A stretch of DNA of 64,000 nucleotides from Pseudomonas taiwanensis. Its GTDB lineage: Bacteria > Pseudomonadota > Gammaproteobacteria > Pseudomonadales > Pseudomonadaceae. Below the pieces are notes generated by a model. That model made no database searches and was not told where the DNA came from. It saw only the letters and a list, made by a program, of their open reading frames with translations. The stretch lies in the NCBI RefSeq assembly GCF_013393345.1, contig NZ_QJRF01000077.1, positions 283,129-347,128 of the forward strand, read 5' to 3'. Below, one piece after another: positions 21,849-64,000 of this stretch. A program made the translations under genes and the position numbers. Every line of letters begins with the position of its first letter. Position 1 is the first letter of the stretch.

Positions 21849-22697
21849 ATGAGCCTCAACAGAATCGGCGTGATAGGTGCCGGCACCATGGGCAGCGGCA
21901 TTGCCCAGGTCTGCGCCTCCGCTGGCCTGCACGTCACCCTGATCGATGTCACCGAATCTGCCCTGGCCCGTGGTATGACGGCCATGGACGAAGGCCTGCA
22001 GCGCCAGGTCCGCAAAGCGAGGATCTGCGAAGGCGAGCGCGAAGCGACACTGGCGCGCGTGCAGGCCACCACGGACTACGCCAGCCTGGCCGACGCCGAC
22101 CTGGTGATCGAAGCCGCCACCGAGAACCTCGACCTCAAGCTGCGCATCCTGCGGCAGATCGATGCGGTGGTTTCAGGCCATGCAGTGATTGCCACCAACA
22201 CCTCGTCCATTTCCATCACCCAGCTGGCCGCCGTGCTGGAACGCCCCGAGCGCTTCATCGGCGTGCACTTCTTCAATCCCGTGCCGGCCATGCAGCTGCT
22301 GGAGCTGATTCGTGGCTTGCAGACGTCCAGCCAGACCCACGCCGCAGTGGAAGCCTTCGCGAAGGCGGTCGGCAAGACCGCCATCAACGTAGACAACGCC
22401 CCCGGATTCGTCGTCAACCGCATCCTCATCCCGATGATCAACGAGGCCGTCTTCGTGCTCCAGGAAGGCCTGGCCAGCGCCCGCGACATCGACACCGGCA
22501 TGCAGTTGGGTTGCAACCACCCCATCGGACCGCTGGCCCTGGCCGACATGATCGGCCTCGACACCCTGCTCGCCATCATGCAGGTCCTGCACGAAGGTTT
22601 CGGCGATCCCAAGTACCGCCCTGCCCGCCTGCTCAAGGACCTGGTCGCCGCCGGCCACCTCGGTCGCAAGAGCGGCCGCGGCTTCCACAGCTACTGA
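21849..22697 (+). CDS. 3-hydroxyacyl-CoA (3-hydroxybutyryl-CoA) dehydrogenase
   Basis: 282 residues from [20 protein letters not shown], with GGAG before the ATG. The Rossmann motif GAGTMGSGIA is at 10-19, TNTSSISI holds the conserved serine, HFFNPVPAMQLLELI contains the catalytic His, and NAPGFVVNRI starts the C-terminal helical domain. The enzyme oxidises L-3-hydroxyacyl-CoA with NAD. It is single-function and short, like Hbd/PaaH, unlike the FadB-type protein at 50 kb. It is followed after 22 bases by an acyl-CoA dehydrogenase gene, so the two probably act in sequence. Confidence 0.93.
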   Translation: MSLNRIGVIGAGTMGSGIAQVCASAGLHVTLIDVTESALARGMTAMDEGLQRQVRKARICEGEREATLARVQATTDYASLADADLVIEAATENLDLKLRILRQIDAVVSGHAVIATNTSSISITQLAAVLERPERFIGVHFFNPVPAMQLLELIRGLQTSSQTHAAVEAFAKAVGKTAINVDNAPGFVVNRILIPMINEAVFVLQEGLASARDIDTGMQLGCNHPIGPLALADMIGLDTLLAIMQVLHEGFGDPKYRPARLLKDLVAAGHLGRKSGRGFHSY

Positions 22698-22719
22698 CAC
22701 GCCCCTCGAGGTTTCAGCC

Positions 22720-24516
22720 ATGAGTGAATACAGCGCCCCCCTGCGCGACATGCAGTTCGTCCTCAACGAACTGGGATACCTGGAACAAGTGAGTGAGTTG
22801 CCTGGCTGCGAAGAGCTGGGTGCCGATCTCGTCGATGCCATCCTCGGTGAGGCCGGCAAGTTCGCCCAGGGCGTGCTCTCGCCCCTGAACGTCATCGGTG
22901 ACCGTGACGGCGCGCGCTGGCACGAAGGCGAAGTGACCACCGCAAAAGGCTGGCACGAGGCCTACGGCCAGTTCGTCGACGGCGGCTGGAACGCCCTCTC
23001 CTGCCACCCGGAATTCGGCGGCCAGGGCCTGCCGCGACTGATTTCCGCGCTGGTGGAAGAAATGTGGAACGGCGCCAACGTTTCCTTCGGCCTGTGCCCC
23101 ATGCTCACCCGCGGCGCCATCGAAGCCATCGAGCTCTGCGGGTCTTCCTACCTGAAGGAAACCTACCTGCCGAAGATGATCAGCGGCGAATGGACCGGCA
23201 CCATGAACCTGACCGAGCCCCAGGCCGGTTCGGACCTCGCTGCCGTGCGCAGCCGCGCCGAGCCCCAAGGCGACGGCACCTACCGCGTGTTCGGCCAGAA
23301 GATCTTCATCACCTATGGCGAGCACGACCTGACCGACAACATCGTGCACCTGGTGCTGGCCCGCGTTCCGGGCGCGCCGGAGGGTGTGAAAGGCATTTCG
23401 CTGTTCGTGGTGCCGAAGTTCCTGGTGAACCCCGATGGCAGCCTGGGTGCACGCAACGACGTGCGCTGCGCCTCCATCGAACACAAGCTGGGCATCCATG
23501 GCAGCCCCACCGCCGTACTGGCCTTCGGTGACAACGAAGGCGCCCTGGGCTGGCTGGTGGGCGAAGAGAATCGCGGGCTGGAATACATGTTCATCATGAT
23601 GAACGCCGCGCGCTTCTCCGTCGGTATCGAAGGGATCGGCCTGTCCGAGCGTGCCTACCAGCGTGCACTAGCCTACGCCCGTGAGCGCGTTCAAGGCACC
23701 GAGGCCGGCGCGAAGAGTCGCGACAAGGTGGCGATCATTCGCCATCCGGACGTTCGCCGCATGCTGCTGTCGATGAAAGCCCGCACCGAGGCGATGCGCG
23801 CCATCGCCTGCGAAGTCGCCACCGCAATGGACTGCGCCGAACGCCACCCCGACCCCGCACGCCGCGAGGAATCGCAAGCCTTCGTCGACCTGATGATCCC
23901 CGTGGTCAAGGGCTGCGGCACCGAGAACGCGGTGGATATCGCTTCCCTGGGCGTGCAGATCCATGGCGGCATGGGCTTCATCGAGGAAACCGGTGCCGCC
24001 CAGCATCTGCGGGACGCACGCATCACCACCATCTACGAAGGCACCACCGGCATCCAGGCGTCCGACCTCGTCGGCCGCAAGATCGCCCGCGATGGCGGCA
24101 AGGCCATCGGGCTGGTGACCAAGCGGATGCGCTACGTCATGGAGCGCCTCGTCTGGGCCGATGATCCTCAGCTGCAGGACATCGCCAGCGCTCTCGCCAC
24201 CTCCGTGGTATCGCTGAACGCGGCGGTCGAGTTCATCGTCGAGAACTTCAATGGTCAGGCACCCCGCGTCCTGGCTGGCGCCGTGCCTTTCCTGGAGCTG
24301 TTCGGCACCGTGGCCGGTGGCTGGCAGATGGCCCGCGCCGCGCTTGTCGCCCATGAGCAGCTCAAGGCGGGAACCGTCGAGCAGGACTTCTATCGCGGCA
24401 AGCTGCAGACCGCGCGCTTCTACGCCGAGCACCTGCTGCCGCGCGCCGAAGGGCTGTCGCGGATCGTGATCCAGGGCGGCGATGCGATCCTGGAAATGGA
24501 CGACACGTTGTTCTGA
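22720..24516 (+). CDS. DmdC-type long acyl-CoA dehydrogenase
   Basis: 598 residues, about 200 longer than ordinary acyl-CoA dehydrogenases. An N-terminal extension is followed by the FAD core (TGTMNLTEPQAGSDLAAVRS, GQKIFITYGEHDLTDNIVHL), a catalytic Glu in RITTIYEGTTGIQASDL, and an extra C-terminal helical domain. This is the DmdC/AidB-like group, which acts on 3-methylmercaptopropionyl-CoA or longer and unusual acyl-CoAs. It is co-directional with the HBD gene. A paralogue with the same layout begins at 48274. A terminator follows. Confidence 0.9.
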   Translation: MSEYSAPLRDMQFVLNELGYLEQVSELPGCEELGADLVDAILGEAGKFAQGVLSPLNVIGDRDGARWHEGEVTTAKGWHEAYGQFVDGGWNALSCHPEFGGQGLPRLISALVEEMWNGANVSFGLCPMLTRGAIEAIELCGSSYLKETYLPKMISGEWTGTMNLTEPQAGSDLAAVRSRAEPQGDGTYRVFGQKIFITYGEHDLTDNIVHLVLARVPGAPEGVKGISLFVVPKFLVNPDGSLGARNDVRCASIEHKLGIHGSPTAVLAFGDNEGALGWLVGEENRGLEYMFIMMNAARFSVGIEGIGLSERAYQRALAYARERVQGTEAGAKSRDKVAIIRHPDVRRMLLSMKARTEAMRAIACEVATAMDCAERHPDPARREESQAFVDLMIPVVKGCGTENAVDIASLGVQIHGGMGFIEETGAAQHLRDARITTIYEGTTGIQASDLVGRKIARDGGKAIGLVTKRMRYVMERLVWADDPQLQDIASALATSVVSLNAAVEFIVENFNGQAPRVLAGAVPFLELFGTVAGGWQMARAALVAHEQLKAGTVEQDFYRGKLQTARFYAEHLLPRAEGLSRIVIQGGDAILEMDDTLF

Positions 24517-24903: not shown

Positions 24904-25476
24904 TCAGCCCCTGGATCGGCTATCGGTCGGCCGCCACTCACGAACACGGAGTGCGGCATCGCCTTCCGGGCGGTAGGCGTGGCAGGTGCCGATGGCCCAA
25001 TGGGTGGGCATCTCGAAATCGGGGTCGCGGGCGGCGCGCTCGCGCAAGCGCTTCTGCACCACGGGCGCCAGGGTCTGAATGGCGGTCGTAGCCATGGGAC
25101 CGAGCAGTTCGGTGAGGTGCGTGCAGCCCTTCATGCCGCCAACCCGCTCGGCCACGCGCTTCTTGAACCCCGGGCCGATGCTGACTCCCACCAACGCGGC
25201 ATAGGCCTGGTTGATATGGCTGCACACGGGCGTGGGTGCCTGTTCGGAAACGGCTTCGATCCGCTGGATCACCAGCTTGCGGTCGAGGGTCATGCGGATA
25301 AGCATCTGGTGCAGCACACCGTTGGCGGGAATGACCCCATAGGGGAACTCGGTGTCGACCCCCTTGGTATCCAGCAGCCGTCCCTCGATCTCGAACAGCC
25401 CGTCGTCGCGTTCATAACCGGTGCAGGTCACCTGGCGGGTGTGCAGCAGACGACGGCTGACAGTGTTTTCTTCCAT
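24904..25476 (-). CDS. DUF2889 domain protein (first copy)
   Basis: Starting at MEENTVSRRLLHTRQVTCTG gives 190 residues; ACTGTTGC with AAGGAGAC just upstream supplies the ribosome site. DUF2889 features seen are CTGYERDDGLFEIEGRLLDT, MLIRMTLDRKLVIQRIEA, and the strongly conserved GPGFKKRVAERVGGMKGCTH then LTELLGPMATTAIQTL, ending with IGTCHAYRPEG. No function is assigned to this family. It is the last gene of the thiolase/MaoC/SDR operon. A homologue lies at the right end of the window next to an acyl-CoA synthetase, tying the family to acyl-CoA metabolism. Confidence 0.88.
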   Translation of the reverse strand: MEENTVSRRLLHTRQVTCTGYERDDGLFEIEGRLLDTKGVDTEFPYGVIPANGVLHQMLIRMTLDRKLVIQRIEAVSEQAPTPVCSHINQAYAALVGVSIGPGFKKRVAERVGGMKGCTHLTELLGPMATTAIQTLAPVVQKRLRERAARDPDFEMPTHWAIGTCHAYRPEGDAALRVREWRPTDSRSRG

Positions 25477-25525: not shown

Positions 25526-26353
25526 TCAGACGTTGCCGATGCCGCCACCGCAGACCAGGACCTGGCCGGAGACGTAGTCGGATTCCGGGATGCAGAACAG
25601 GTATACCGCACCTGCCGCCTCCTCGGTATTGCCCGGACGGCCCAGCGGGATCATGGTCTTCGACTGTTCGACGATGGCCGGGCTGATGCCCACCTTGATC
25701 TCGCGGCCTTCGATGTTGATGTAGTTCGGGTCGCCTTCCACTGGCTGGGTCTGGCGGGTCTCGATGTGGCCGAAGGCAACGGCGTTGACGTTGACCTTCA
25801 TGCGGCCCCACTCCTTGGCCAGGCACTTGGTCATGCCCAGCACGCCGGCCTTGGCCGTGGAGTAGTTGACCTGGCCCGGGTTACCGCCAGCCGAAGTCGA
25901 GGCGATGTTGACCACCTTGCGGTTGACCACGCGACCCTCGGCGGCTTCTTTCTTGGCCATGGCACTGATGATCGGCTGGGCGGCGCGCAGGATGCGGAAC
26001 GGCGCGGTGATGTGGCAGTCGATGATCGCGTACCACTGCTCGTCGCTCATTTTCTGGATCACGTTGTCCCAGGTGTAGCCGGCGTTGTTGACGATGATGT
26101 CGATGCCACCGTAGCTGTCCACCGCAGTCTTGACGAAGCGGTCGGCGAAATCGACGGCGGTGACGCTGCCAACGCAAGCGACGGCTTCGCCACCAGCGGC
26201 GCGGATTTCCGCGACCACTTCCTCGGCCGGGCCGGCGTCCAGGTCATTGACCACCACGCGGGCGCCATCAGCGGCCAGTTTCAGGGCGACGCTGCGGCCT
26301 ATGCCACGGCCAGAACCGGTGACCAGGGCGACTTTACCTTCGAGCTTTTTCAT
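25526..26353 (-). CDS. Short-chain dehydrogenase/reductase (3-hydroxyacyl-CoA-type)
   Basis: 275 residues with SDR motifs TGSGRGIGRSVA (cofactor glycines, residues about 12-20), VNDLDA (Asp after beta-2, favouring NAD), VNNAGYTW, and the catalytic Ser-Tyr-Lys in NIASTSAGGN and VNYSTAKAG. The C-terminal VSGQVLVCGGG is usual. In this operon, with two MaoC-type hydratases and a thiolase, it probably oxidises a (3R)-hydroxyacyl-CoA. 49 bases separate it from the DUF2889 gene and 25 from the MaoC gene. Confidence 0.9.
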   Translation of the reverse strand: MKKLEGKVALVTGSGRGIGRSVALKLAADGARVVVNDLDAGPAEEVVAEIRAAGGEAVACVGSVTAVDFADRFVKTAVDSYGGIDIIVNNAGYTWDNVIQKMSDEQWYAIIDCHITAPFRILRAAQPIISAMAKKEAAEGRVVNRKVVNIASTSAGGNPGQVNYSTAKAGVLGMTKCLAKEWGRMKVNVNAVAFGHIETRQTQPVEGDPNYINIEGREIKVGISPAIVEQSKTMIPLGRPGNTEEAAGAVYLFCIPESDYVSGQVLVCGGGIGNV

Positions 26354-26378: not shown

Positions 26379-26798
26379 TCAGGCGAGGGCCACGACGGCT
26401 TCGCCGATCAGTTTTTCTTCGCCGTACTGGTTGCCGCAGCGAATCGCCAGGCGCACGCGCCGTTCGCCATCGGCCTCGAATTTTTCGATGACCTTGCCGC
26501 TGCAGGTGGGAACGTGGCCCAGCTGGGTGATGCCGGTGAAGCGCACCGACAGGCTGCAAATCTGCGTCTGCGACACCCAGCCGGTGAGCAGACGGCCGAG
26601 GTACGCCACCGAGAGCATGCCGTGGGCAAACACATCGGGCTGGCGCGCCTTGCGGGCGAAGTCGAGATCGATATGCACCTGGTTGTGGTCACCGGATGCG
26701 CCGGCATACAGGGCCAGCGTGGTGCGGTTGACCGCGGGCAGCGTCAGCGGCGGCAGCTCAAAGCCAATCTGCAGCTCGTCGAATAAGGGAAGGCTCAT
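26379..26798 (-). CDS. MaoC-type (R)-hydratase / dehydratase
   Basis: 139 residues with the hot-dog-fold motif ALYAGASGDHNQVHIDLDFA, which supplies the hydratase-2 Asp and His (D-x-N-x-x-H), then DVFAHGMLSVAYLGRLL. Such enzymes hydrate 2-enoyl-CoA to (3R)-hydroxyacyl-CoA. It lies 10 bases after the FAS1-dehydratase-like gene; the pair probably forms a heterodimer in which this subunit carries the active site, as known for heteromeric MaoC enzymes of steroid side-chain degradation. Confidence 0.88.
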   Translation of the reverse strand: MSLPLFDELQIGFELPPLTLPAVNRTTLALYAGASGDHNQVHIDLDFARKARQPDVFAHGMLSVAYLGRLLTGWVSQTQICSLSVRFTGITQLGHVPTCSGKVIEKFEADGERRVRLAIRCGNQYGEEKLIGEAVVALA

Positions 26799-26808: not shown

Positions 26809-27249
26809 TCAGCGCTGCACGAGGGAGGAACGGATGTCGGCGATGTGCCGGCCGTCCTGGTTGGTAACCCGGGTCTCCTGGACCACGAAGGTCAGCGCCC
26901 CACCCTTCTTCTCGTAGACGTCCACTACCCGCGTATCGAAGGTCAGCACGTCGCCGGCATAGGCCATGCCGTGATAGGTGAAACCCTGCTCGGCATGCAG
27001 GATGCGCCCGAGGTCGAAGCCGAAGATGCCTTCGACGATATGGTCGGAGTCGCGCCCTTCGGCTTCCAGGCACATCAGGAAGCTCGGCGGCACCGGCAAT
27101 CCGGGATGCCCGGCCGACCTGGCAGCGGCTTCGTCGGTGTAGACCGGATCGGTCTCGCCGATGGCCTTGGCGAAGAAGCGCAGGCGGCCCTTCTCCACGT
27201 CGGCGGTGGTCACTCCCAGGGAACGGCCGATCAGACTCTTGTCTGCCAT
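26809..27249 (-). CDS. MaoC-like N-terminal (FAS1-type dehydratase) subunit
   Basis: 146 residues from MADKSLIGRSLGVTTADVEK. It has the N-terminal MaoC-like hot-dog pattern (GETDPVYTDEAAARSAGHPG then PPSFLMCLEAEG and YHGMAYAGDVLTFDTRVVDV) but lacks the catalytic D-x-N-P-x-H motif of its neighbour. It is therefore a likely structural or substrate-binding partner of the MaoC protein encoded directly downstream. The start is chosen because the longer frame would run into non-homologous leader. Confidence 0.85.
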   Translation of the reverse strand: MADKSLIGRSLGVTTADVEKGRLRFFAKAIGETDPVYTDEAAARSAGHPGLPVPPSFLMCLEAEGRDSDHIVEGIFGFDLGRILHAEQGFTYHGMAYAGDVLTFDTRVVDVYEKKGGALTFVVQETRVTNQDGRHIADIRSSLVQR

Positions 27250-27305
27250 GTCATGGAGTCCTCGAGTGAATTGAAACGCGCGCCCGCGAGGGGCGCGCAC
27301 TGGCT

Positions 27306-28493
27306 TCAGCCGCGACCGAAGAGGGTCACGATGCCGGCGCCGCCCAGGCCCAGGTTGTGCTGCAGGGCGTGCTGCAGGCCCTCCACCTGGCGGGCTCCGG
27401 CGGTGCCGCGCAGCTGATGGGTCAGCTCATAGCACTGGGCCAGGCCGGTGGCGCCCAGCGGGTGGCCCTTGGAGAGCAGGCCGCCGGACGGGTTGACCAC
27501 CACCTGGCCGCCATAAGTGTTGTCGCCATCCATCACGAACTTCTCGGCGCCGCCTTCCGGGCAGAAACCCAGGCCTTCATAGGTCAGCAGTTCGTTGTGG
27601 GCGAAGCAGTCGTGCAGCTCGCAGACACGGATATCTTCAGGACCAACGCCAGCCTTTTCGTACACCTCGGTGGCGGCCTGACGGGTCATGCCGACGCCGA
27701 CGATGCTGATCAGCGACGGCGGGTCGAAGGCTTCCGGCTTATCGGTCACCAGGGCCTGGGCCAGGATGCTCACGTCGGTACGCAGGCCGTGCTGCTTGGC
27801 GAAGCGCTCGGATACCACGATGGCTGCGGCACCGCCGCACGTGGGCGGGCACGCCATCAGGCGGGTCATTACGCCGGGGAAGATCACCTGGTCGGCCATC
27901 ACTTCCTCGGTGGTCACCACCTTCTTGAATACCGACAGCGGGTTGTTGGCGGCATGGCGGCTGGCCTTGGCGCGAATGGCGGCGAAGGTTTCCATCTTCG
28001 TGCCGTACTTCTGCATGTGTTCGAGACCGGCGCCGCCGAAGAACTTGAGGGCGTCAGGCATATCGCGGCCCTGCGGGAAGATCGCGTCGGCCACGTCGTG
28101 GCCCTTGCCGTAGGTGATCGGGCGGTCGAGCCAATGGGACTTCAGGGCGCCGGGTTGCATCTGCTCGAAGCCGAAGGCCAGGGCGCAATCCACCGCACCG
28201 CTCTCCACCGCCTGGCGAGCCAGGTAAAGCGCAGTGGAACCGCTGCCACAGTTGTTGTTGACGTTGATCACCGGGATGCCGGAGAGGCCCACCTCGTAAA
28301 GGGCCGACTGGCCGCTGGTGGAGTCGCCATAGACGTACCCGGCGTAGGCCTGCTGGACCTTGCCGTAATCCACGCCGGCATCCTGCAGCGCCAGGCGGAT
28401 GGCCTGGGCGCCCATCTCGATATAGGTACCGCTCTGGCCAGGCTTGGCAAACGGAATCATGCCGACACCGGCGACAAACACTTTCTGCGACAT
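27306..28493 (-). CDS. SCP2-type thiolase, catalytically intact
   Basis: 395 residues from MSQKVFVAGVGMIPFAKPGQ. The thiolase residues are all present: nucleophile Cys82 in NNCGSGSTAL, His294 and Cys296 in CELHDCFAHN, and His344 in KGHPLGATG. This subgroup resembles the thiolase part of SCP-2/SCPx, used on branched or steroid-derived 3-ketoacyl-CoA. It is the first gene of the operon thiolase-MaoC-MaoC-SDR-DUF2889, which by itself could run a hydration, oxidation and cleavage round. It is divergent from the DUF1302 gene. Confidence 0.92.
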   Translation of the reverse strand: MSQKVFVAGVGMIPFAKPGQSGTYIEMGAQAIRLALQDAGVDYGKVQQAYAGYVYGDSTSGQSALYEVGLSGIPVINVNNNCGSGSTALYLARQAVESGAVDCALAFGFEQMQPGALKSHWLDRPITYGKGHDVADAIFPQGRDMPDALKFFGGAGLEHMQKYGTKMETFAAIRAKASRHAANNPLSVFKKVVTTEEVMADQVIFPGVMTRLMACPPTCGGAAAIVVSERFAKQHGLRTDVSILAQALVTDKPEAFDPPSLISIVGVGMTRQAATEVYEKAGVGPEDIRVCELHDCFAHNELLTYEGLGFCPEGGAEKFVMDGDNTYGGQVVVNPSGGLLSKGHPLGATGLAQCYELTHQLRGTAGARQVEGLQHALQHNLGLGGAGIVTLFGRG

Positions 28494-28769
28494 CACTTTC
28501 TCCAGGTTCAGGTGACAAGGTCCGGGCTGCGTGCCTGTCTTCGACGGCAATGGCAGCACTCCTTGGACCGATGGTTGCGCAGCGACGAACAGCCACGCCC
28601 CCCCTCATGGAGGGGGCGCGGGCCTGTCCGGCCAAGGGGGGATGGCGAGGGGTACGACGGGAGGGAAATATCCCCCCCTACTGGAGGGGGAAGGGTGGGG
28701 GACGCCGGGGATAGCGTGTGCTTGCGGTCCTGAAAAACAACAAGAAAGACTCCATAGAGGAACCAACAC
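28494..28769. promoter_or_regulatory. Divergent promoter region of the thiolase operon and DUF1302/1329 pair
   Basis: The 276 bases between two divergent catabolic units must hold both promoters, but no clear -35/-10 pair was identified. Two G/C hairpins stand out: CGCCCCCCCTC..GAGGGGGCG at 28596-28618 and CCCCCCTACTGGAGGGGG at 28673-28690. Similar CCCCCTC/GAGGGGG stretches occur near 42870 and 46825. Confidence 0.45.
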
Positions 28770-33649: not shown

Positions 33650-33880
33650 GCGGATTCTCCCGGCAAAGTCCAGCCCATCGCCCTGCCGATCGGCACCTGG
33701 GCGTCTTATGGTTGCAACAGCTTAAAGGCGTGCCCGACGCGCCTCTCCCCCCGAATGTAGGGGGACGGGTTGCACCTGCGAACGAGGAACATGGCTTACC
33801 TGGGAGAGGCCCTCCCTCGCCAGGTCGATTGATCCAGCCGCTGGATCAACCTCTATCACCACCTTGCGGGTACCCCAACG

Positions 33881-42779: not shown

Positions 42780-43202
42780 GGGGGGGGTCTCCTCGGCTCA
42801 ATCGTTCCGCCACCCCTTCGGGCGGCTCTGGATCGATCATAGGAGGAGGTATTCGGGGTCAGCCCCCTCAGGGAGGGGGGGATACGGGGGCCTGCGAGGC
42901 ACCGCCCTGCCCAACCTTTCGAACTGCCCCGCTGCGATGTGGGGGCGATTTCAATCGCCAAGCGGACCGCAGGTTCGCCACTGATGCCTGCATGGGGCAG
43001 CTACGCCGCCCTTAGCGAATGAATTCGCCCCCACAGGGAGAGACGCCCTGCCCACCATTTCGGACCGACCGGGATGCAATGTGGGAGAGCCACTATCCGT
43101 AGAACTACGGAGCGGCGCAGGTAGTCGGGCGCATACCGCGGCGCAAGCGTTCTGGCCAGACTGCTCGCATCTCGACACCTCATCCACCTGAAGGACATCA
43201 CC
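42780..43202. other. Intergenic region with dispersed repeats and a perfect palindrome
   Basis: The 423 bases between divergent genes include a hairpin at 42808-42825, a CCCCTC/GAGGGGG stretch near 42870, and sequence related to the tandem array at 54-56 kb (GGGGGCGATTTCAATCGCCA at 42943 and GCGAATGAATTCGCCCCCAC near 43015). A perfect palindrome TCCGTAG-AA-CTACGGA sits at 43096-43111. No gene is seen. Confidence 0.6.
43096..43111. promoter_or_regulatory. Perfect 16-bp palindrome upstream of the HbpS-like gene
   Basis: TCCGTAG, two A, CTACGGA; it lies about 92 bases before the ATG of the secreted HbpS/GlcG-like gene. It could be an operator, for instance for one of the two MalT-like regulators. 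No second copy was found, so this is only a candidate. Confidence 0.35.
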
Positions 43203-46753: not shown

Positions 46754-46884
46754 CAGTAGCCGCCTTGTTTCCGGGCATTTGGGCGACCTTTTCTGCAACA
46801 GATGGTGGCGGGGAAAGCGAGGGGGCCGCCCCCTCGAACCGAGGGGGTGGAACGGCGGTACCAGGACGGGACCGCCGGAGCGGA

Positions 46885-48027
<1,143 letters not shown>

Positions 48028-54249: not shown

Positions 54250-54640
54250 GGGCTCCAGGGTGCTGGCAGGCTTTTGTGCCAGCCTGATGCAGCCCTCTCC
54301 CCCGGCCCCTCTCCCTGAAGTGGAGAGGGGTGACGCTCGGCCCACCTCCGGCGCAATCCTGTGGGGGCGATTTCAATCGCCAAGCAGGACGCAGTCCTGC
54401 CCGCTCTTGTAGGAGCGAATTCATTCGCGAAATGGTTAGGCACCGAGCCGGCCTGCAATCACCCTCTCCCCCGGCCCCTCTCCCGCAGGCGGGAGAGGGG
54501 TGACTCTCGGCTCACCTCCGCATCTCCCTGTGGGGCACATCCCCTGTGGGGGCGATTTCAATCGCTAAGCAGGATGAAGTGGCCTAATGATTCTGGACAC
54601 CCCGATAGGGCGTTAAGATTCGCCCACAGCAGAGGTGTTC

Positions 54641-55782
<1,142 letters not shown>

Positions 55783-56525
55783 ACCTAAACCGGTGTCCAG
55801 TTTTACTTGACCACTTCAACCACTTCACACCGAGCTGGCCGGCTACAACCCTCACCCCCAGCCCCTCTCCCAGAGGTAGAGGGGTGACTCTCGGCTCACC
55901 TCCGCATCTCCCTGTGGGGCACATCCCCTGTGGGGGCGATTTCAATCGCTAAGCAGGACGCAGTCCTGCCCGCTCTTGTAGGAGCGAATTCATTCGCGAA
56001 ATGGTTAGGCTCCGAGCCGGCCTGCAATCACCCTCACCCCCGGCCCCTCTCCCGCAGGCGGGAGAGGGGTGACTCTCGGCTCACCTCCGCATCTCCCTGT
56101 GGGGCACATCCCCTGTAGGGGCGAATTCATTCGCCAAGCAGGACGCAGTCCTGCCCGCTCTTGTAGGAGCGAATTCATTCGCGAAATGGTTAGGCACCGA
56201 GCCGGCCGGGTGCCACCCTCACCCCCGGCCCCTCTCCCGCAGGCGGGAGAGGGGTGACTCTCGGCTCACCTCCGCATCTCCCTGTGGGGCACATCCCCTG
56301 TGGGGGCGATTTCAATCGCTAAGCAGGACGCAGTCCTGCCCGCTCTTGTGGGAGCGAATTCATTCGCGAAATGGTTAGGCACCGAGCTGGCCTGCAATCA
56401 CCCTCACCCCCAACCCCTCTCCCAGAGGTAGAGGGGTGACTCGCGCCGGCGAGGGTCGAGTCATCCTGAAGCAATCAGTGGCCTGAAACAGAGATGGGGC
56501 GGCAACTTCACGCGTCGCTGGCGAG

Positions 56526-59201
56526 TCAGGAACCCTCTTCCCGCCGCCTACGCATCGCAATAATGGCGTCGTAACGGCTGGACACGCCGAGCTTGGCGAA
56601 GATGTTCTTCAGGTTCCATTTCACCGTCTGCAAACTCAGGTTCAATGCCAGCGCAATCCGCTTGTTGGACATCGACTGTTCCAGCAGATCGAGAATCTCC
56701 AGCTCGCGCCGGGTCATCATCTGGTTTGCCTGGGCACTGGACGGCCGGGCAGCGCACGGCTCGGGCCGGGCCACCGGACCTTTTCGGTCCAGGCTCCGGC
56801 AGTAACCGCCCAACACCGAATCCTCGTCCAGTTCAAGCTGGCCGAGCATCGACTGGAAGCGTTCCCCCTCGTCCAGGAAGGTTCTAACCAACCCCAGGCG
56901 GTAGCCACAGGCGAGTGCCGCGTGGAGTCTTTCCCGTGCCTCGGTGCGGCGCTCCAGTGCCTCCAGGGCAAAGGCACGCAACAGGTCCACCTGGACGCGC
57001 CAGCGGCCCCTGTCGAACTCGCTGGCATAGCGATGGGCAATGTCCAGCGCCTGCATGGCCGCCTCCGGCTGATACCTCGCCAGGGAAAGCCGCGCCTTGG
57101 CCAGGGCAGCCAGGGTCATGATTTCCGCGTCGCACGGCGTCGCGCCACGATGGCTGCGGGCCAGGTCGTCGAGCTTGGCCAACAAGGTCTCGGCGTGGCT
57201 CCAATCGCCGCACGCGAGCACGAGGCGCAATTGCTCGGCGAGCATGCTGCCGACACCGCGATCGAGCCCCAGGCTACGGAAGTGATCTTCCTTCTCCGCC
57301 AGGTATTCCAGCGCGGCTCGGGGAGATTCCCGCAAGCTCTTCAGGCGCGCCTGGCAGAGCGCGGCGCCGATCATGAAGACCGGCGCGGAGAAGCGCAGGA
57401 TATCCAGGCGGTTCGCCAGGGCTTGATGAACGTCCTCGATGCGATCGAGTTCGTAGCAAGCCTCAGCCATCACCACGGCGGCAGTGCAGGCACTCACCGA
57501 GCGCCGGCCATGCAACGCTTCGGCTCGTTCCAGGATCGGCGCGCAGAGGCGCTCCGCCTCAAGCACCTTGCCCTCCAGGAAGTTTGCCGAGGCCATGGCT
57601 ATGACGCCAATCAGGGCCATCTCGTCGTCGCTGCGCAGACAGCGTGCCGCGGGCTGCCGGTACAGACTGCGGGCTTCGCCGTGACGCCCCGCCGTGGCAA
57701 GGCCGCTGAGGGTCAGGCCAATCCGTACCTGCTCCAGAAAGGGTGTCTCGAGCGGCTCGTGCTCGATGGACTCCAGCAGCGCCATGCAGGTCGTATCGTC
57801 GTCACGGTGCATGGCCAGTGAAGCCTTGAGCAGCACCAGCTGGGATGCCCGCCCCACGCCCAGCGACTCTCGTTCCACCACACCAAGCCACGTTTCCGCT
57901 TTGCTGGTGAGAACCGTCAGCACCGCGCCCCAGATGCCCTGCAGCAACAGGCTGGGATGTGCGGCCAGCACATTCAGCGGAATCGGCTCCAGCCAACGCA
58001 TGAACTGGCTGAGATGACTCACACGGCGCGTATCGGGCTGAACGCGCTCCAGCAGGCCGACGATCACGTCGAAGTCCTCGCAGAGCAGACCGTGACGCAA
58101 CGCGTCCTGAACCAGCCCGGCCTGCTCGAACCACTGGGCAGCGCGACGATGGAGGCGCGGGACATCCACACCGCTCTCCTGCAGGCGCTTGCCCAGGAAC
58201 TCCACGAACAGCGGATGCAGGCGGTACCACTGGTGTTGCCCCGCCAGGTCCACCGGCTGGATGAACAGGTTGCGCTCCTCGATGGCGGCGATCATCGCGG
58301 CCGCCTGCGGCGAGTCCGTCAAGTAGGCGGCCACCTCCGCGTTGAAGCGGCGCAGGATGGAGATCTTCAGCAGGAAATCGAACAGCTCCGCTGGCAGGTT
58401 CGCCATCACGTCTTCCGACAGGTACTCCACCAGCCCCGAGCTGTTGTGCATCAGGACAGCGCCATGCATGGGCTTTTTCGAGTTGGCCTTGAGCGCGATG
58501 GACATCAGTTGCAAGCCGATGGGCCAGCCGCGGGTCAGTTCGTGGATCACGTGCACGGCGTCCAGTTCCACCCCCTGATCCAGGTGTGTCTTGACGAAGG
58601 CCACCGTCTCGCGGAAATCGAACGGCAACTCCTTGCAGTCCACCTCGCACAGCTCGCCCAGCCCCCGCAGGCGTCCGAGGAGAAGCGACGGCGTAGTACG
58701 CGATGCCAGGAGCAGATGCACCTCCTGGGGCAGGTTATCCACCAGCGATTGCATCAGTGTGGCGATGCGCGGATCGACGGCATGGTGGAAGTCGTCGAGC
58801 ATCAGGTAGAGCGAGCCGCTGGTCCTGGCCAGGGCGTTGACCAGCAACCCGGATATCGTCTGCAGACCTGTGCTTTCGGCACCCGCCAGCAGCAGCAAGT
58901 CCTCATCCAGCGGCAACCCGGCCTGCCGCAACGCCCCCAGCAGACTGGCGCAGAACGACTCCAGCGTGCCGTCATCGGGCGTCAGGGACAGCCAGGCTAT
59001 CCGCGCCCCTTCCTTTATCAGCTGCTGGCGCCACTGGGCAATCAATGTGGTCTTGCCGAATCCGGCACCACCGGTCACCAGCAGCAGGCGGCTATGGCGT
59101 CCGCGTTGCAGCTTGTCCAGCAATTGCTCGCGGGAAACGGTCTGGGGGCTGATGCGTGGTGGCGCGAACCGGGTAGTGATCAACGGGGCGGATGCAATCA
59201 T
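56526..59201 (-). CDS. MalT-like LuxR-family ATP-binding regulator (LAL), second copy
   Basis: 891 residues from MIASAPLITTRFAPPRISPQ; an in-frame start 27 codons earlier is leader. Walker A is TGGAGFGKTTLIAQW at about 43-57, Walker B LYLMLDDFHHAVDP, and the C-terminal helix-turn-helix has MTRRELEILDLLEQSMSNKR then VKWNLKNIFAKLGVSSRYDA. It is homologous along its length to the LAL at 43946, with the most alike part at the DNA-binding end, so both may read related sites but sense different inducers. It lies 146 bases downstream of the DUF1254-type genes on the same strand, probably with its own promoter. Confidence 0.93.
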   Translation of the reverse strand: MIASAPLITTRFAPPRISPQTVSREQLLDKLQRGRHSRLLLVTGGAGFGKTTLIAQWRQQLIKEGARIAWLSLTPDDGTLESFCASLLGALRQAGLPLDEDLLLLAGAESTGLQTISGLLVNALARTSGSLYLMLDDFHHAVDPRIATLMQSLVDNLPQEVHLLLASRTTPSLLLGRLRGLGELCEVDCKELPFDFRETVAFVKTHLDQGVELDAVHVIHELTRGWPIGLQLMSIALKANSKKPMHGAVLMHNSSGLVEYLSEDVMANLPAELFDFLLKISILRRFNAEVAAYLTDSPQAAAMIAAIEERNLFIQPVDLAGQHQWYRLHPLFVEFLGKRLQESGVDVPRLHRRAAQWFEQAGLVQDALRHGLLCEDFDVIVGLLERVQPDTRRVSHLSQFMRWLEPIPLNVLAAHPSLLLQGIWGAVLTVLTSKAETWLGVVERESLGVGRASQLVLLKASLAMHRDDDTTCMALLESIEHEPLETPFLEQVRIGLTLSGLATAGRHGEARSLYRQPAARCLRSDDEMALIGVIAMASANFLEGKVLEAERLCAPILERAEALHGRRSVSACTAAVVMAEACYELDRIEDVHQALANRLDILRFSAPVFMIGAALCQARLKSLRESPRAALEYLAEKEDHFRSLGLDRGVGSMLAEQLRLVLACGDWSHAETLLAKLDDLARSHRGATPCDAEIMTLAALAKARLSLARYQPEAAMQALDIAHRYASEFDRGRWRVQVDLLRAFALEALERRTEARERLHAALACGYRLGLVRTFLDEGERFQSMLGQLELDEDSVLGGYCRSLDRKGPVARPEPCAARPSSAQANQMMTRRELEILDLLEQSMSNKRIALALNLSLQTVKWNLKNIFAKLGVSSRYDAIIAMRRRREEGS

Positions 59202-59347: not shown

Positions 59348-60370
59348 TCAGTTCAGCGGACGGGCTTCGGGGAAGCTCCAGGTTCCATCCAGCACCTCGG
59401 CGCCGGGGCGGTAGAGGCGAACCATGTAGTTCCAGCCAGGCATCACGGGCAGGCAGTTGACGACCTTGCCGTCACAACCGCCGAACTGCACGGTCACCGA
59501 ACCGTCGGCCGCCTTCTTCGCGGTGATGCTGTTCAGGGTGTAGGCGTTGTAGGGATTGGCTTCGAAATAGCCCTTGGCGTTGTAGAGGCTGATCGACCAG
59601 AAGTCCTTGACCGGTACATCGCGCACAGTGAGCCGGTAGACGGTCTTACCGTCATTGGCGGCAGGCGTGACGTTGAGGTAGGTGGCGTCCTTGTCGGGGT
59701 TGCCACCCCAGGCCGCAGCGGCACCGATCAGGTGACGCACCGGCTCGACCTGCCCCTTGGTGCCGAATGCATTTTTCAAGCTTGGAAGGGTCGCGTTGAG
59801 CGCAACCAGGGCATCGCGTACACGCTTTTGGCTCTCGGGGTCCCACTTCGGCACCTCGAACTTTCCGCTGCTCGCCTGCTGCACCTGGATCTGGTCCTGC
59901 AGTGCGCTTACCTGCTGGACATCGTTCGGATCATTCGGATCGACCAGGGTGCGGATCCCTACCGCCGCATAGCGCGTGCCGACGCTTTCGCGCGTCACGG
60001 TGTACGTCCCGGCGCCATAGAAAACGTTGGGGACATAGTGCTCCTCGCTGATCACCTGCAGCGACATGAAGCGCGTGCCTGCGTCGGGCAGGGTGACAGT
60101 CACCGGCCCAGCGTCGAGGTCGAACACACCCGACGAATACAGGGTGTCGCGGTTGATGCGCACAACCGTCTGTTGGTCGATGGGCGCCAGCGCTCGATTG
60201 TGGTTGAGTTTGCCAAAGCCGCCTTTATTCACCATCCGGGTGAAGTACATGTCGGATTCGGCCTGAGCGAAGTTATCGACCGTAACGGTCACGCTGTCTT
60301 CCGCCTGGGCCGTCGAGACGCCCATGATCCCCAGGAGCAACGCGGCGGCCAGGTTGAGTGGCTGATTCAT
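59348..60370 (-). CDS. Secreted DUF1254/DUF1214 protein (short form)
   Basis: 340 residues with signal peptide MNQPLNLAAALLLGIMGVST and AQA cleavage site. DUF1254 features: VDNFAQAESDMYFTRMV, VVRINRDTLYSSGVFDLDAG, ISEEHYVPNVFYGAG. The DUF1214-like C-terminal part has DFWSISLYNAKGYFEANPYN and MPGWNYMVRLYRPG. The function of this family is unknown. GAGGAAAA precedes the ATG. It follows a longer paralogue 32 bases upstream, so they are co-transcribed. Confidence 0.85.
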   Translation of the reverse strand: MNQPLNLAAALLLGIMGVSTAQAEDSVTVTVDNFAQAESDMYFTRMVNKGGFGKLNHNRALAPIDQQTVVRINRDTLYSSGVFDLDAGPVTVTLPDAGTRFMSLQVISEEHYVPNVFYGAGTYTVTRESVGTRYAAVGIRTLVDPNDPNDVQQVSALQDQIQVQQASSGKFEVPKWDPESQKRVRDALVALNATLPSLKNAFGTKGQVEPVRHLIGAAAAWGGNPDKDATYLNVTPAANDGKTVYRLTVRDVPVKDFWSISLYNAKGYFEANPYNAYTLNSITAKKAADGSVTVQFGGCDGKVVNCLPVMPGWNYMVRLYRPGAEVLDGTWSFPEARPLN

Positions 60371-60402: not shown

Positions 60403-61806
60403 TCAGTCGACGCGTACCAGTTCAGGGCGTTTCCAAGTGCCATTGCTGGCGGCCGGCTCGGGCCAGTACAAGCGCATCGCCAGGAAGAACGGCCCTGCCG
60501 GCACCGGCAACCAGTTGCTTTCCCGGTCGGCACTCGGGCGCTCGTGCTGCACATAGAGCGTCACGCCCCCATCGGCATCGCGCTTGAGGCTGGGCAGCAT
60601 CGGTGAATTGATCAGGTAACGATTCAGCGGGTTTTCCACCAGCAGCCGGGACGGCAGGCTGTAGGCCGTCAGCGACCAGAAGGCCTTGACCGGGGGCAAC
60701 TGGCCGGCCGAGAAGCGAAGTGCATAGCGGTGCTTGGCGGCGTCCAGTTTCTGGCCGGTGGAGTCGAGGAAATAGCTTGGATAAAGAGCTTCCTCCGCCG
60801 AATTGCCGTAGATGCCACCGACGGCCCCTCCCATGCGGTAGAGGTAATTGCCGGCCAGGTGCTCGCGCGTGCCGAAGACATCGGCGCTGCCTACTTTCCT
60901 GGCGTCGCGCAGGCGTTCGAACCCGGCATAGGATTGGCTCCAGGCATCGCCAATACCCGCCTGGACAGCCTGGCGCAGTTCAGGGGAAAGCGAAGCCGCA
61001 TCGAAGCTTCCACCCGGACCGATCCCCAACTTGGCGAACCGCTCCATCAATGCCTTCTCGGAAGGATGGGTGGGGCAGAAACGCAGCACGAAGTTCAGTA
61101 CCTCGAAGAACTCGACGGACTTGCGTTCATCTTCGACGCTGAGCGGCCTGATGAAGTCGACCTCGGGCGCGGCCGCAGGTGCCGGTTGCCCAAGGAAGGT
61201 GGACAGCGGCTGCACCTTGTAGCCGGCCTGGACCTTCTTGACCTCGTCCAGGTCCTCGGGGCCGAACAGCTGGGTGCGATAGAGCAGGAAGGCGAACTGG
61301 GTTTCCGAACGGATGACCGACTTGATGCCCGGTGGTGTCGCGCCTTTCCAGTCAGGTCCGGCCAGCAGGAAGTTGCCTGCCTCGTTGCCCGTCGCCCGGC
61401 TGCCGACATAGGCGAAGTTATGCGTGTAGGCGTCGACGAACTGCACCGAGTAGTAACGATCCTTGGCGACCGCCGGCATGGAGAGGACCAGCGGCTCGGC
61501 GCGCAGGTCGGCTCCCAGTTGCGAATAGGGAGTATCGGAATTGGGCGTCTGGATCGCCTTGTCGGCCGGCGTATAGACCCGCGCAGTGTTGTTCAACTGG
61601 TTCCAGGGCGCCTTGTATTCCGGGCTCTCGCGGTCCACGAAGTAGGCGTACTGAATGCGATAGTGATCCACCAGCGGGTAGCCGTAGACATAAGCGTCCC
61701 GCGCGATAGCGCGGGCCTCTTCAGCGGACAGGTCCTGGGCATTGGCCGGCAGCGCCAGGAAGGCGGAAAAAAGGGCCGCAGCCATGAGAACGGGTTGCTT
61801 GCTCAT
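60403..61806 (-). CDS. Secreted DUF1254/DUF1214 protein (long form)
   Basis: 467 residues with signal peptide MSKQPVLMAAALFSAFLALP and ANAQ. DUF1254 part: AYVYGYPLVDHYRIQYAYFV, QTPNSDTPYSQLGADLRAEP, VDAYTHNFAYVGSRATG. DUF1214 part: PPVKAFWSLTAYSLPSRLLV, PLNRYLINS and FFLAMRLYWPEP at the end. Family function is unknown; these proteins occur beside degradation clusters. It lies 47 bases after the acyl-CoA synthetase gene, so envelope and ligase functions are co-expressed. Confidence 0.86.
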   Translation of the reverse strand: MSKQPVLMAAALFSAFLALPANAQDLSAEEARAIARDAYVYGYPLVDHYRIQYAYFVDRESPEYKAPWNQLNNTARVYTPADKAIQTPNSDTPYSQLGADLRAEPLVLSMPAVAKDRYYSVQFVDAYTHNFAYVGSRATGNEAGNFLLAGPDWKGATPPGIKSVIRSETQFAFLLYRTQLFGPEDLDEVKKVQAGYKVQPLSTFLGQPAPAAAPEVDFIRPLSVEDERKSVEFFEVLNFVLRFCPTHPSEKALMERFAKLGIGPGGSFDAASLSPELRQAVQAGIGDAWSQSYAGFERLRDARKVGSADVFGTREHLAGNYLYRMGGAVGGIYGNSAEEALYPSYFLDSTGQKLDAAKHRYALRFSAGQLPPVKAFWSLTAYSLPSRLLVENPLNRYLINSPMLPSLKRDADGGVTLYVQHERPSADRESNWLPVPAGPFFLAMRLYWPEPAASNGTWKRPELVRVD

Positions 61807-61853: not shown

Positions 61854-63422
61854 TTAGCCGACGTTGCGTGCGCGGTTTTCCCAGAAGGGCTTGCGCAGCT
61901 CGTTCTTGAGTATCTTGCCGACGCCGGACAGCGGCATCGCCGTGCGGAACTCGACGCTGCGCGGGCACTTGTAACCAGCGATCCGCTCACGGCAATGGGC
62001 GACGACTTCTTCCTCGCTGGCCGTTGCGCCCGGCTTCAGCACGATCACCGCATGCACGGTTTCGCCCCACTTGTCCGAGGGAATACCGATGGCGGCGCAC
62101 TGGGCGACGCCCGGATGGCTGGCAATGGCGTTTTCCACTTCGGCCGAATAGATGTTCTCGCCGCCGCTGACGATCATGTCCTTGAGGCGGTCAACGATGT
62201 AGACGAAGCCCTCGCTGTCCATGTAGCCGCCATCGCCGGTGTGCATCCAGCCGTCCTTGAGGACTTCTGCGGTGGCTTCCGGACGGTTCCAGTAGCCGAG
62301 CATGACGTTGGGTCCACGTACGGTGATCTCGCCGACCGTGCCGCGCGGCACTTCTCGCCCCAGCTCGTCGACGATCTTCACCTCTACGCAGGTCACCGCT
62401 CGCCCGGCGGAGTACATCTTGCCGCTGGCCTGGTGCTCGGCGCAGTGGTATTCGGCATCCAGCATGGTGCCGCCGGTGGTGAGCTCGGTCATGCCGTAGC
62501 CCTGGAAGAACCCGGCTGCCGGGAAGGCTTCACAGGCGCGATCCAGCAGAGCCGGGGATATGGGCGAAGCGCCATAGACGATGTGCCGGATGGTACCCAG
62601 TTCCAGTTTGGCCTTGGCCGGGTTCGCCTGGCGGGCATCCAGCATCATCTGGATCATGGTCGGCGCCAGCATCAGGTCGGTGACCCGCTCGGTGAGAATG
62701 GTGTCCAGCGCCGCCTCACCGGTAAAGGCCGGCAGGATGACGTGGGTGCCGCCGGAGACCATCAGTCCGTACATGGCCGAGAAGTCGGCGAGGTGGAACA
62801 TCGGCATCGCGTGCATGAACACCGCGTTGCGGCCGAAGAAACCCTTCACCTGGGCACAAAGCGCAGCGAACGCCAGATTGCTGTGGCTGATCATCACGCC
62901 CTTGGGGAAACCGGTGGTGCCGCCGGTGTAGAAAATGCCCAGCAGTGCATCGCCGCCGCGACGCACGTCCTCTACCGCCTCCGCCTCCGCCAGCAGGGCT
63001 TCGTAGGACAGCATGCCCGCCGGGGTCTCGCCGTCGCCGGCATAGATGAGATGACGGATGGTCCTGGCCTGATCGGCAATGACCGCGCCGACGTCCTTGA
63101 AGGTGTCGTCGACGATGAGCATGGTCGAGCCGGAGTCGTCCAGGGAATAGACGATCTCCGCCACGCTCCAGCGGGTGTTCACCGGATTGAGCACACCGTC
63201 CGCCCAGGGCACGCCCAGGCTGTATTCGATGTAGCGCTGCGAGTTGCGCGAGAGCATGGCGATGCAGTCGCCGCTGGCCAGGCCCAGCTGCTTCAGGGCA
63301 CCCGCCAGGCGGGCGACCCGGTCGGCGAGCTGGGAAAAGGTCAGGCTACGGCCCAGTTCGCGGATCGCGACCGCGTCGGGGCGTTGCTGGACATGGCGAT
63401 GCAAGCCTTGGGTGATGTACAT
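61854..63422 (-). CDS. Acyl-CoA synthetase (AMP-binding), second copy
   Basis: The ATG at 63422 (MYITQGLHRHVQQRPDAVAI, 522 residues) has GGAGG six bases upstream; a TTG four codons earlier is less likely. AMP-binding motif GIFYTGGTTGFPKGVMISHS, GYGMTELTTGG, HTGDGGYMDSEGFVYIVDR, DMIVSGGENIYSAEVE and the late catalytic Lys in GVGKILKNELRKPFW are present. Its size and motif set fit the medium-chain / FadD13-like group. It is followed by two DUF1254-type genes and preceded by a DUF2889 gene. Confidence 0.92.
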   Translation of the reverse strand: MYITQGLHRHVQQRPDAVAIRELGRSLTFSQLADRVARLAGALKQLGLASGDCIAMLSRNSQRYIEYSLGVPWADGVLNPVNTRWSVAEIVYSLDDSGSTMLIVDDTFKDVGAVIADQARTIRHLIYAGDGETPAGMLSYEALLAEAEAVEDVRRGGDALLGIFYTGGTTGFPKGVMISHSNLAFAALCAQVKGFFGRNAVFMHAMPMFHLADFSAMYGLMVSGGTHVILPAFTGEAALDTILTERVTDLMLAPTMIQMMLDARQANPAKAKLELGTIRHIVYGASPISPALLDRACEAFPAAGFFQGYGMTELTTGGTMLDAEYHCAEHQASGKMYSAGRAVTCVEVKIVDELGREVPRGTVGEITVRGPNVMLGYWNRPEATAEVLKDGWMHTGDGGYMDSEGFVYIVDRLKDMIVSGGENIYSAEVENAIASHPGVAQCAAIGIPSDKWGETVHAVIVLKPGATASEEEVVAHCRERIAGYKCPRSVEFRTAMPLSGVGKILKNELRKPFWENRARNVG

Positions 63423-63454
63423 CGGGGCCTCCAATCTTGTTGTTATCGTGAAAA

Positions 63455-64000
63455 TCAGTCAGCCCCGGCATCCGGGGCGGGTGCACTGGCGATTTCCGGC
63501 CAGAGCTTGCGGACCAGTTCGCCGTCCGGGCGATAGACGTGGCAGGTGCCGATCACCCAGCGCTGGGCTTCGGCGCGAGTCCTTACCTGCTCCTCCGGCG
63601 AGGCGTCGTTTTCTGCAGGGATCAGCGAGAGGGTTTGCAGCACGGTGGTTGCCAGCGGACCGAGCAGCTCGGTGAGATGGGTGCACCCCCTGACACCGCC
63701 TACCCGCTCGATAACCTTGCGCTTGAATCCGGGTCCGATCTTCAGTCCTACCAATCCAGCATAGGCAGCGTTGACCTGGGTGCAGGCCGGGTTTGGCACA
63801 GTGCGGCTGAGCACCTCGACGGCGCAGATCTGCAGGCTCCGGTCGAGGGTCAGGCGCAAACCCAGATCATGCACCGGCTCGCCGGCCGCAACGGCCTTGG
63901 CGGACAGCTGGATATCGTGGGTCTTGGTGTCCAGCAACCAGCCCTCGAATTCGAACAGGCCGTCTTCGCGCAGGTAGCCCGTGCAGTCGACCCGGCGGGT
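63455..64000 (-). CDS. DUF2889 domain protein (second copy), 5' end beyond the window
   Basis: The frame is open to the window edge: upstream codons read TRRVDCTGYLREDGLFEFEG, matching the N-terminal motif of the first copy (CTGYERDDGLFEIEG), so the true start is outside. The rest has IGPGFKRKVIERVGGVRGCT, LTELLGPLATTVLQTL and IGTCHVYRPDG. It precedes the acyl-CoA synthetase by 32 bases on the same strand. Function unknown; the repeated link to acyl-CoA genes is the only clue. Confidence 0.88.
   Translation of the reverse strand, partial: TRRVDCTGYLREDGLFEFEGWLLDTKTHDIQLSAKAVAAGEPVHDLGLRLTLDRSLQICAVEVLSRTVPNPACTQVNAAYAGLVGLKIGPGFKRKVIERVGGVRGCTHLTELLGPLATTVLQTLSLIPAENDASPEEQVRTRAEAQRWVIGTCHVYRPDGELVRKLWPEIASAPAPDAGAD

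Follow-up and report, generated by a model that had tools for sequence, protein, structure and literature searches.

In animals and yeast, peroxisomal branched-chain β-oxidation proceeds by way of AMACR, acyl-CoA oxidase, MFE-2, and SCPx. In animals, the MFE-2/SCPx chemistry serves 2-methyl-branched and bulky chains such as pristanate and bile-acid intermediates, and it is known mainly from peroxisomal disease. A bacterial gene set that resembles this pathway is found in a 64,000-nucleotide stretch of the Pseudomonas taiwanensis genome (contig NZ_QJRF01000077.1 of assembly GCF_013393345.1, positions 283,129–347,128), the whole of which is called the window here. Within it, module A (~24.9–48.0 kb) forms a unit that is conserved in Pseudomonas, though with a patchy distribution, and the reading modestly favored here is that it constitutes one dedicated catabolic regulon for the β-oxidation of bulky or 2-methyl-branched acyl-CoAs by SCPx/MFE-2-type enzymes. 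As in the peroxisomal pathway, the nearest solved relatives of window proteins are MFE-2 and SCP2-thiolase type 1, and an AMACR-type racemase is encoded nearby, in a second unit designated module B. Unlike that pathway, the locus uses acyl-CoA dehydrogenases (ACADs) rather than oxidases, no SCP2 domain was found on the window thiolase, and the racemase lies outside module A and is missing from 3 of the 18 genomes that carry that module.

Other described systems share parts of this arrangement. Bile-acid and cholesterol side-chain catabolism in P. stutzeri Chol1, P. putida DOC21, and Mycobacterium likewise involves acyl-CoA ligases, ACADs, hydratases, and thiolase-fold lipid-transfer proteins, whereas the Ltp1 of module A is predicted to be thiolytic rather than a retro-aldolase and no ring genes were seen in the window. 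Pisa1, the sec-alkylsulfatase of Pseudomonas sp. DSM 6611, has a close homologue on the same contig ~30 kb past the window, where, however, it is an accessory gene. MalT of Escherichia coli has the AAA, MalT-TPR, and GerE architecture of the window regulators MalT1 and MalT2, but its boxes are short and non-palindromic while the operator proposed here is a long palindrome. The P. putida proteins PP_0765 and PP_0766 are presented in passages of PMC10866462 as essential for Tween 20 use and are modelled there as part of a transport complex; they are adjacent and belong to the same DUF1302 and DUF1329 families as a window pair which, unlike them, has a 19-bp box and stands beside an SCPx-type operon. 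Passages on the Alcanivorax pristane proteome (PMC6850023) name fadAB and ACADs and do not mention a racemase. Among the papers listed in literature searches, nothing relevant was found on bacterial SCP2 thiolases or MFE-2, nor did a description of this cluster turn up among those listed, which were open-access papers.

For comparison, the source assembly (6.69 Mb in 77 contigs, with the window at 283129–347128 of contig C70) is designated G000 and other genomes are numbered in the same way. A genome with a full-length MFE-2 match of at least 81% is termed a carrier. There are 18 carriers, 3 of them in the GTDB genus of the window, and 15 non-carriers, every one from that genus, so that the genus set numbers 18; Fisher tests on carrier and non-carrier counts treated the genomes as unrelated. 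Pfam scans covered 30 open reading frames (ORFs) of the window, whose starts are the longest possible and in some cases over-extended. Coordinates are given with their strand, and those above 64000 continue the contig numbering past the window end.

The enzymes of module A fall mainly into two operons, each with a predicted (3R)-specific hydration and oxidation system; the sequence-only reading of this DNA had also listed systems of this kind. In the first, MFE-2 (38529–40346, −) is by Pfam a fusion of an SDR and a hydratase-2, with 2et6 (498 bits), 3oml (482 bits), and 1gz6 (340 bits) as nearest solved structures; its SDR YxxxK and hydratase GDWNPMH[VI]D motifs are intact in all 18 aligned rows. 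It is encoded with ACAD3 (41634–42779, −), the first gene of the operon, ACAD2 (40462–41610, −), the thiolase-fold protein Ltp2 (37355–38464, −), and acyl-CoA ligase 1 (35579–37276, −; PF00501). A further dehydrogenase, ACAD4 (46885–48027, −), lies beyond the regulator gene. ACAD2, ACAD3, and ACAD4 each have the AWER glutamate, which we take to be catalytic and which in ACAD2 presumably marks an LCAD/IVD type. In the second operon, Ltp1 (27306–28493, −; PF22691) has SCP2-thiolase type 1 (6hsj/6hrv, 424 bits) as its nearest PDB entry, matches the lipid-transfer subfamily NF006102 (660 bits), and retains the thiolase motifs NNNCGSGST, HDCF, and GHPLGATG. It is followed by MaoC-like subunit 1 (26809–27300, −), with PF13452 (FAS1_DH_region) and, just below the cut-off, PF22622 (the MFE-2 hydratase 2 N-terminal domain); by MaoC-like subunit 2 (26379–26798, −), assigned by position and by orthologues beside subunit 1, the Pfam scan of the pair having covered only the latter; by an SDR (25526–26353, −; PF00106/PF13561) that is a candidate 3-hydroxyacyl-CoA dehydrogenase; and, last, by a DUF2889 protein (a; 24904–25476, −; PF11136). 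For this last protein, an AF2 model from 4 sequences has a mean pLDDT of 63, Foldseek gave no PDB match at E≤0.001, and a literature search on DUF2889 gave no lead. Divergent from Ltp1 are DUF1302 (28770–30707, +; PF06980, 571 bits), of a predicted outer-membrane barrel family, and its LolA-like partner DUF1329 (30733–32103, +; PF07044, 496 bits).

Ltp2 represents a quite different case. It matches PF22691 only, retains the thiolase C-terminal domain, and aligns best with the same SCP2-thiolase structures as Ltp1, with 6hsj first, but the column of the nucleophilic cysteine holds another residue in all 17 aligned rows (the window and 16 of 17 Pseudomonas loci, the schmalbachii locus having no Ltp2 match and being left out). 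One row, put31303b, has a cysteine one column off the nucleophile position, and the histidine of GHP is retained in only 4 of the 17; four rows at 45–49% identity may be a different subtype. With its nucleophile lost, Ltp2 would be a non-catalytic partner subunit. The earlier count of three thiolase-fold proteins (27306, 37355, and ~52289) is correct as a count, but only two of them look catalytic. SCP2-type thiolases are multiplied in carriers, with 12 matches at E≤1e-100 in P. sp. H9 (G071), while schmalbachii, izuensis, and putida 31753 have 8 apiece; in the H9 stretches that were read they are frequently accompanied by a MaoC pair and an SDR.

Conservation of these genes as a unit, though patchy, is seen across Pseudomonas. 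In a scan of genome contigs (best 80 of 111 matches), 17 full-length MFE-2 loci at 81–99% identity were found, all in Pseudomonas; the remaining matches are at or below 60% and mostly partial, some approaching full length at 31–45%. Among 57 genomes, three including the source itself have a full-length match of at least 96% (G000, G006, and G008, the last being Pseudomonas sp. BN102 of the same GTDB genus as the window), and one distant genome has a full-length match at 39% with an internal stop. The order ACAD4-MalT1-ACAD3-ACAD2-MFE2-Ltp2-ligase-DUF1329/DUF1302-Ltp1-MaoC1-MaoC2-SDR-DUF2889 recurs in other Pseudomonas, as far as the flanks reach and with occasional single genes absent. Because the order from ACAD4 to the SDR is kept and a rare palindrome is common to the promoters, module A is more than a chance clustering. 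Of the loci compared, G000 and BN102 alone have an HbpS-like (DUF336) gene (43203–43691, +; PF03928) in the gap between ACAD3 and MalT1.

That palindrome emerged from an alignment of the Ltp1-DUF1302 intergenic region of 8 genomes as two conserved GC-rich dyads. The pattern CCCCCYC-N5-GRGGGGG occurs exactly only 4 times in the 6.69-Mb genome, each time within module A, whereas a reversed control pattern has no exact match and only one per strand with one mismatch. Candidate operator boxes 1 (CCCCCCCTCATGGAGGGGG, 28598–28616) and 2 (CCCCCCCTACTGGAGGGGG, 28672–28690) lie between the Ltp1 operon and DUF1302-DUF1329, upstream of both; box 3 (42863–42881) is ~93 bp upstream of ACAD3 and the MFE-2 operon, and box 4 (46829–46847), whose arms form a perfect dyad, ~211 bp upstream of MalT1. 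The last two are independent of the pattern discovery. In 33 genomes, an exact box is present in 18 of 18 carriers, with counts in G065 and G068 that include poly-C/poly-G runs where the control pattern matched too, in addition to true sites near the module, as against 1 of 15 same-genus non-carriers, G013, in which the site does not precede module-A genes. Box and ACAD3 are 91–95 bp apart in 13 of 17 regions and 106 and 110 bp apart in two; the other two have no site at 14 bits before ACAD3 but do have one-mismatch copies near that place. Spacing is also constrained: in six long regions, a 5-bp spacer gives 4, 3, 3, 4, 5, and 3 sites and other spacers from 0 to 12 give 0–2, while the 200 kb upstream on C70 gave no sites in this control. 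Ten more copies with one mismatch occur in G000, of which one overlaps box 1, seven are elsewhere, and two are further along the contig, at a LacI-HpsN-like operon and at an alkylsulfatase/MFS locus. A looser two-mismatch pattern matched 15 times in the window against 7.7 expected, so that weak sites mean little. Fourteen stretches around listed boxes of other genomes contain 14 boxes, 4 in main clusters and 10 elsewhere; five of the latter precede FeADH, ACAD4, DUF1302, DUF1254b, or a second ACAD3-MFE2 copy. In P. putida 31303 (C97, L181), a second, divergent ACAD3-MFE2-thiolase operon has its own exact box.

MalT1 (43946–46627, −) combines an NTPase, a MalT-TPR region, and a C-terminal LuxR helix-turn-helix (HTH) domain (PF13191, PF17874, PF00196), which is the STAND/MalT-type architecture, and its HTH is nearly invariant across 12 aligned orthologues, of which the most distant has 63% overall identity. 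MalT1 is the putative box binder, and it would activate the set and its own gene when the substrate or its CoA ester appears. DUF1302 and DUF1329 may help the substrate across the outer membrane, as proposed for PP_0765/0766. The substrate probably enters the pathway as an alcohol or aldehyde, sometimes perhaps freed from a sulfate ester, before it becomes an acyl-CoA. The acyl-CoA would then be dehydrogenated by ACAD2–4, hydrated and oxidized by the (3R) route through MFE-2 or through MaoC and the SDR, and cleaved by the SCPx-type thiolase, with the adjoining FadB-thiolase operon handling straight steps. On this reading, module A would deal with acyl-CoAs that ordinary FadAB manages poorly. 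Among genes outside the window, the acyl-CoA reductase LuxC tracks the carriers closely (18 of 18, against 1 of 15 non-carriers; 3 of 3 against 1 of 15 within the genus); in 8 regions its neighbors include a LuxE-like gene in all 8 and a Zn-ADH in 6. The 476-residue protein encoded next to LuxC at 92313–93743 matches nothing in Pfam or NCBIfam, and its LuxE-like label comes from position only.

Several observations weigh against a dedicated regulon of this kind. Fusions of MFE-2 type at 31–45% identity occur in other bacteria as well, so the fusion by itself is not special, and matched non-carriers are lacking for the carriers of other species groups. A weight-matrix scan of a 108-kb G000 stretch gave 5 sites of at least 14 bits, all intergenic, against a mean of 0.15 and a maximum of 1 in 20 first-order Markov shuffles, but it is partly circular; as the matrix was built from the boxes it then scanned, the exact-pattern counts are the cleaner evidence. 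The single exact site of G069 is unplaced among the sites listed, and the other five of the ten boxes elsewhere have weak or no clear targets (a WS/DGAT-like gene at 34% in G061, a MalT1-like piece in G066, a sulfatase-like ORF at 30% and an unclear site in G070, and the G013 site). No site in the promoter of the FadB operon reaches 14 bits. Because the recognition helix of MalT2 is similar to that of MalT1, the box need not belong to MalT1 alone. LuxC, the LuxE-like protein, and the ADH could run reductively, the ADH best resembling the aldehyde reductase Ahr (317 bits, below the cut-off of 470). The Pisa1-like sulfatase occurs at 78% or more in only 10 of 18 carriers and also in 1 of 15 non-carriers. 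An AMACR match at E≤1e-80 was obtained for 15 of the 18 carriers and for 2 of the 15 non-carriers; the three carriers without one, G006, G062, and G065, are among those with fewest SCPx copies, and module A can therefore live without the racemase.

A broader proposal, which can be put forward only tentatively, is that the peroxisomal branched-chain pathway has in module A a bacterial counterpart, organized as a single regulon under a MalT-like STAND activator and a 19-bp operator for which no description was seen, pairing Ltp1 with a conserved but catalytically dead thiolase-fold subunit whose gene adjoins that of MFE-2, and opening an unrecognized natural class of branched alcohols or sulfate esters to scattered Pseudomonas species. 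If so, one short motif would mark a whole unexplored catabolic regulon and could help to identify the genes that belong to it in more Pseudomonas genomes, as has partly been done here. The locus would also offer a genetically tractable bacterial system for MFE-2/SCPx chemistry and a defined place to look for roles of DUF1302, DUF1329, DUF2889, and DUF1254, and the question of the substrate would become directly testable with a box-reporter strain.

The sulfatase past the window (94657–96645) raises the possibility, itself unlikely, that the locus serves the degradation of branched or secondary alkyl sulfates, a Pisa1-like enzyme freeing the alcohol, dehydrogenases oxidizing it, and module A burning the chain. 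This sulfatase is nearer to Pisa1 (927 bits) than to SdsA1 (614 bits). Its G006 orthologue has an exact box 78 bp upstream, the G000 gene has an upstream box with one mismatch, and a site of at least 14 bits precedes the LacI-HpsN-like operon in 4 carriers (G000, G062, G067, and G063). Passages of PMC6107682 describe the carrier P. umsongensis DSM 16611 as without the ability to degrade sodium dodecyl sulfate (SDS), and Pisa1 is described in passages of PMC3920027 as inactive on SDS. On the other hand, 8 of 18 carriers lack the sulfatase at 78% or more, and the non-carrier G015 has one preceded by a 16.6-bit site and no module A. Moreover, SdsAP1/2, which are nearest to Pisa1, originate from SDS degraders, and passages of PMC6107682 suggest that they act on SDS. 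A HisD-family gene (81268–82551), nearest to sulfopropanediol 3-dehydrogenase (405 bits; histidinol dehydrogenase reaches 255), runs with LacI, a 4HBT thioesterase, and a sulfatase, with a box upstream. A search with only the first 312 residues of the sulfatase at 83065 showed no more than a general likeness to arylsulfatases.

Rather less probable is that module A degrades steroid or bile-acid side chains and that the ring genes lie elsewhere in the genome. SCP2-thiolase, MFE-2, and AMACR, the last in module B, are the enzymes that act on bile-acid intermediates in animals, and ~150–165 kb upstream of the window, its contig in G000 encodes two KshA-like Rieske oxygenases, one of them best matched by 4qdc (108 bits). 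Yet KshA_C matches above 200 bits are about as frequent in carriers (13 of 18) as in non-carriers (10 of 15), so KshA does not track module A. Steroid-ring catabolism as a shared purpose was rejected on KshA only, other ring genes not having been searched genome-wide. Copies that resemble the C70 pair (96–98 bits) appear only in G000 and, once, in G006 among the matches listed, and the pair may belong to another pathway. A retro-aldolase requires a DUF35 partner, and the 30 window ORFs, to which the search for one was confined, gave no DUF35 match. Bile-acid degraders of the P. stutzeri Chol1 type carry out, in passages of PMC6678751, a retro-aldol cleavage after a proposed heteromeric Scd1AB, whereas Ltp1 has its full thiolase motif set and ACAD2–4 keep the AWER glutamate. 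The sequence-only reading had compared the locus with steroid and terpenoid side-chain degradation of a hydrophobic substrate. A hydrophobic or branched acyl substrate remains the natural reading of an SCP2-thiolase type 1 together with an MFE-2, and the earlier observation that no ring-cleaving enzyme is seen holds for the 30 ORFs scanned, but a shared steroid purpose is unsupported. Likeness to the acyclic-terpene (Atu/Liu) pathway is also unsupported: no biotin-dependent carboxylase, such as the geranyl-CoA or methylcrotonyl-CoA enzyme, was among the matches of those ORFs, the rest of the genome not having been searched.

A role in storage or biosynthesis, in which LuxC, the LuxE-like protein, and the ADH reduce acyl groups, a wax ester synthase makes wax esters, and the β-oxidation genes recycle them, is very unlikely. 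Module A does contain an accessory wax ester synthase/DGAT (WS/DGAT; 33881–35368, +; PF03007, PF06974) and an ABHD18-like α/β hydrolase (32465–33649, −; PF09752/PF00561) whose orthologue stands beside WS/DGAT in G006, G062, and G072; a weak box with 2 mismatches (33746–33764) lies in the gap between them, with a one-mismatch copy at the same place in G062. The universal presence of LuxC in carriers and the G061 box, which directly precedes its WS/DGAT-like gene, point the same way. Against this, WS/DGAT is present in 2 of 5 long carrier regions and absent between DUF1329 and the ligase in the other three (G067, G071, and G058), and the boxed operons belong to degradative families. Finally, a chance gathering of ordinary fatty-acid degradation genes with no common substrate, suggested by the separate occurrence of the FadB operon and module B, is scarcely credible for module A given its kept order and common box.

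The proposed island is a composite, because relatives can have module B or the FadB operon separately from module A. An island of ~42 kb with one purpose, as first proposed, was accordingly rejected in favor of two modules that meet at 54.3–56.5 kb. Separate conservation of the operons in relatives, which the sequence-only reading had set against its own island, is what is seen for module B and the FadB operon, while module A stays together. The FadB operon (48.3–53.5 kb), conserved independently of both modules, consists of ACAD5 (48274–50076, +), its first gene, a FadB-like ECH-3HCDH fusion (50115–52226, +), and a classical thiolase (52289–53473, +; PF00108, PF02803). Its distribution, followed by an ACAD5 orthologue search at 77% or more, extends to all 18 carriers and also to 3 of the 15 non-carriers (G007, G009, and G015), and in G062 ACAD5 is ~370 kb from module A. 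At the junction (54272–56519), ~185-bp direct repeats with 26-nt palindromes are split by an IS3-type element (54635–55782) with HTH_Tnp_1 and rve ORFs.

Module B extends from 56.5 kb past the window edge to ~75.2 kb on the contig and would be a separate relative with a racemase and regulators of its own. Within the window it comprises MalT2 (56526–59201, −), its regulator by position, two DUF1254/DUF1214 proteins (a, 59348–60370, −; b, 60403–61806, −), the acyl-CoA synthetase ACS2 (61854–63422, −; NF004837 at 514 bits, against a cut-off of 476), and DUF2889 protein b (63455–64000, −; PF11136), which runs off the edge. There follow ACAD6, an SDR, a MaoC protein, a second SCP2 thiolase, AMACR (best PDB entry 1x74, 358 bits), MalT3, and another LuxR-like regulator. 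No box was found in module B at 14 bits. A similar order occurs in H9 ~260 kb from its module A. ACS2 at 80% or more is present in 7 of the 18 carriers and in none of the 15 non-carriers. Of the six such carriers besides G000, four have it on a separate contig from Ltp1, and in two it lies 91 and 258 kb away.

Apart from the island itself, the first inventory is borne out by Pfam, including five ACADs (22720, 40462, 41634, 46885, and 48274), two AMP-binding ligases (35579 and 61854), WS/DGAT, DUF1302, DUF1329, both DUF1254/DUF1214 and both DUF2889 proteins, and the two MalT-like AAA/MalT-TPR/GerE genes (43946 and 56526). The (3S) systems are likewise present, as the ECH-3HCDH fusion of the FadB operon and as a 3-hydroxyacyl-CoA dehydrogenase (3HCDH; 21849–22697, +; PF02737/PF00725) that begins a two-gene stretch with ACAD1 (22720–24516, +), a 598-residue acyl-CoA dehydrogenase with a PF12806 C-terminus; the 3HCDH gene adjoins module A in G006. 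A second large catabolic region lies upstream, at 90–225 kb of C70, and holds several ACAD homologues, the two KshA-like Rieske oxygenases, a second LuxC-LuxE-like pair, and three DUF1302/DUF1329 pairs, one of them beside a gene that by eye is RND-like.

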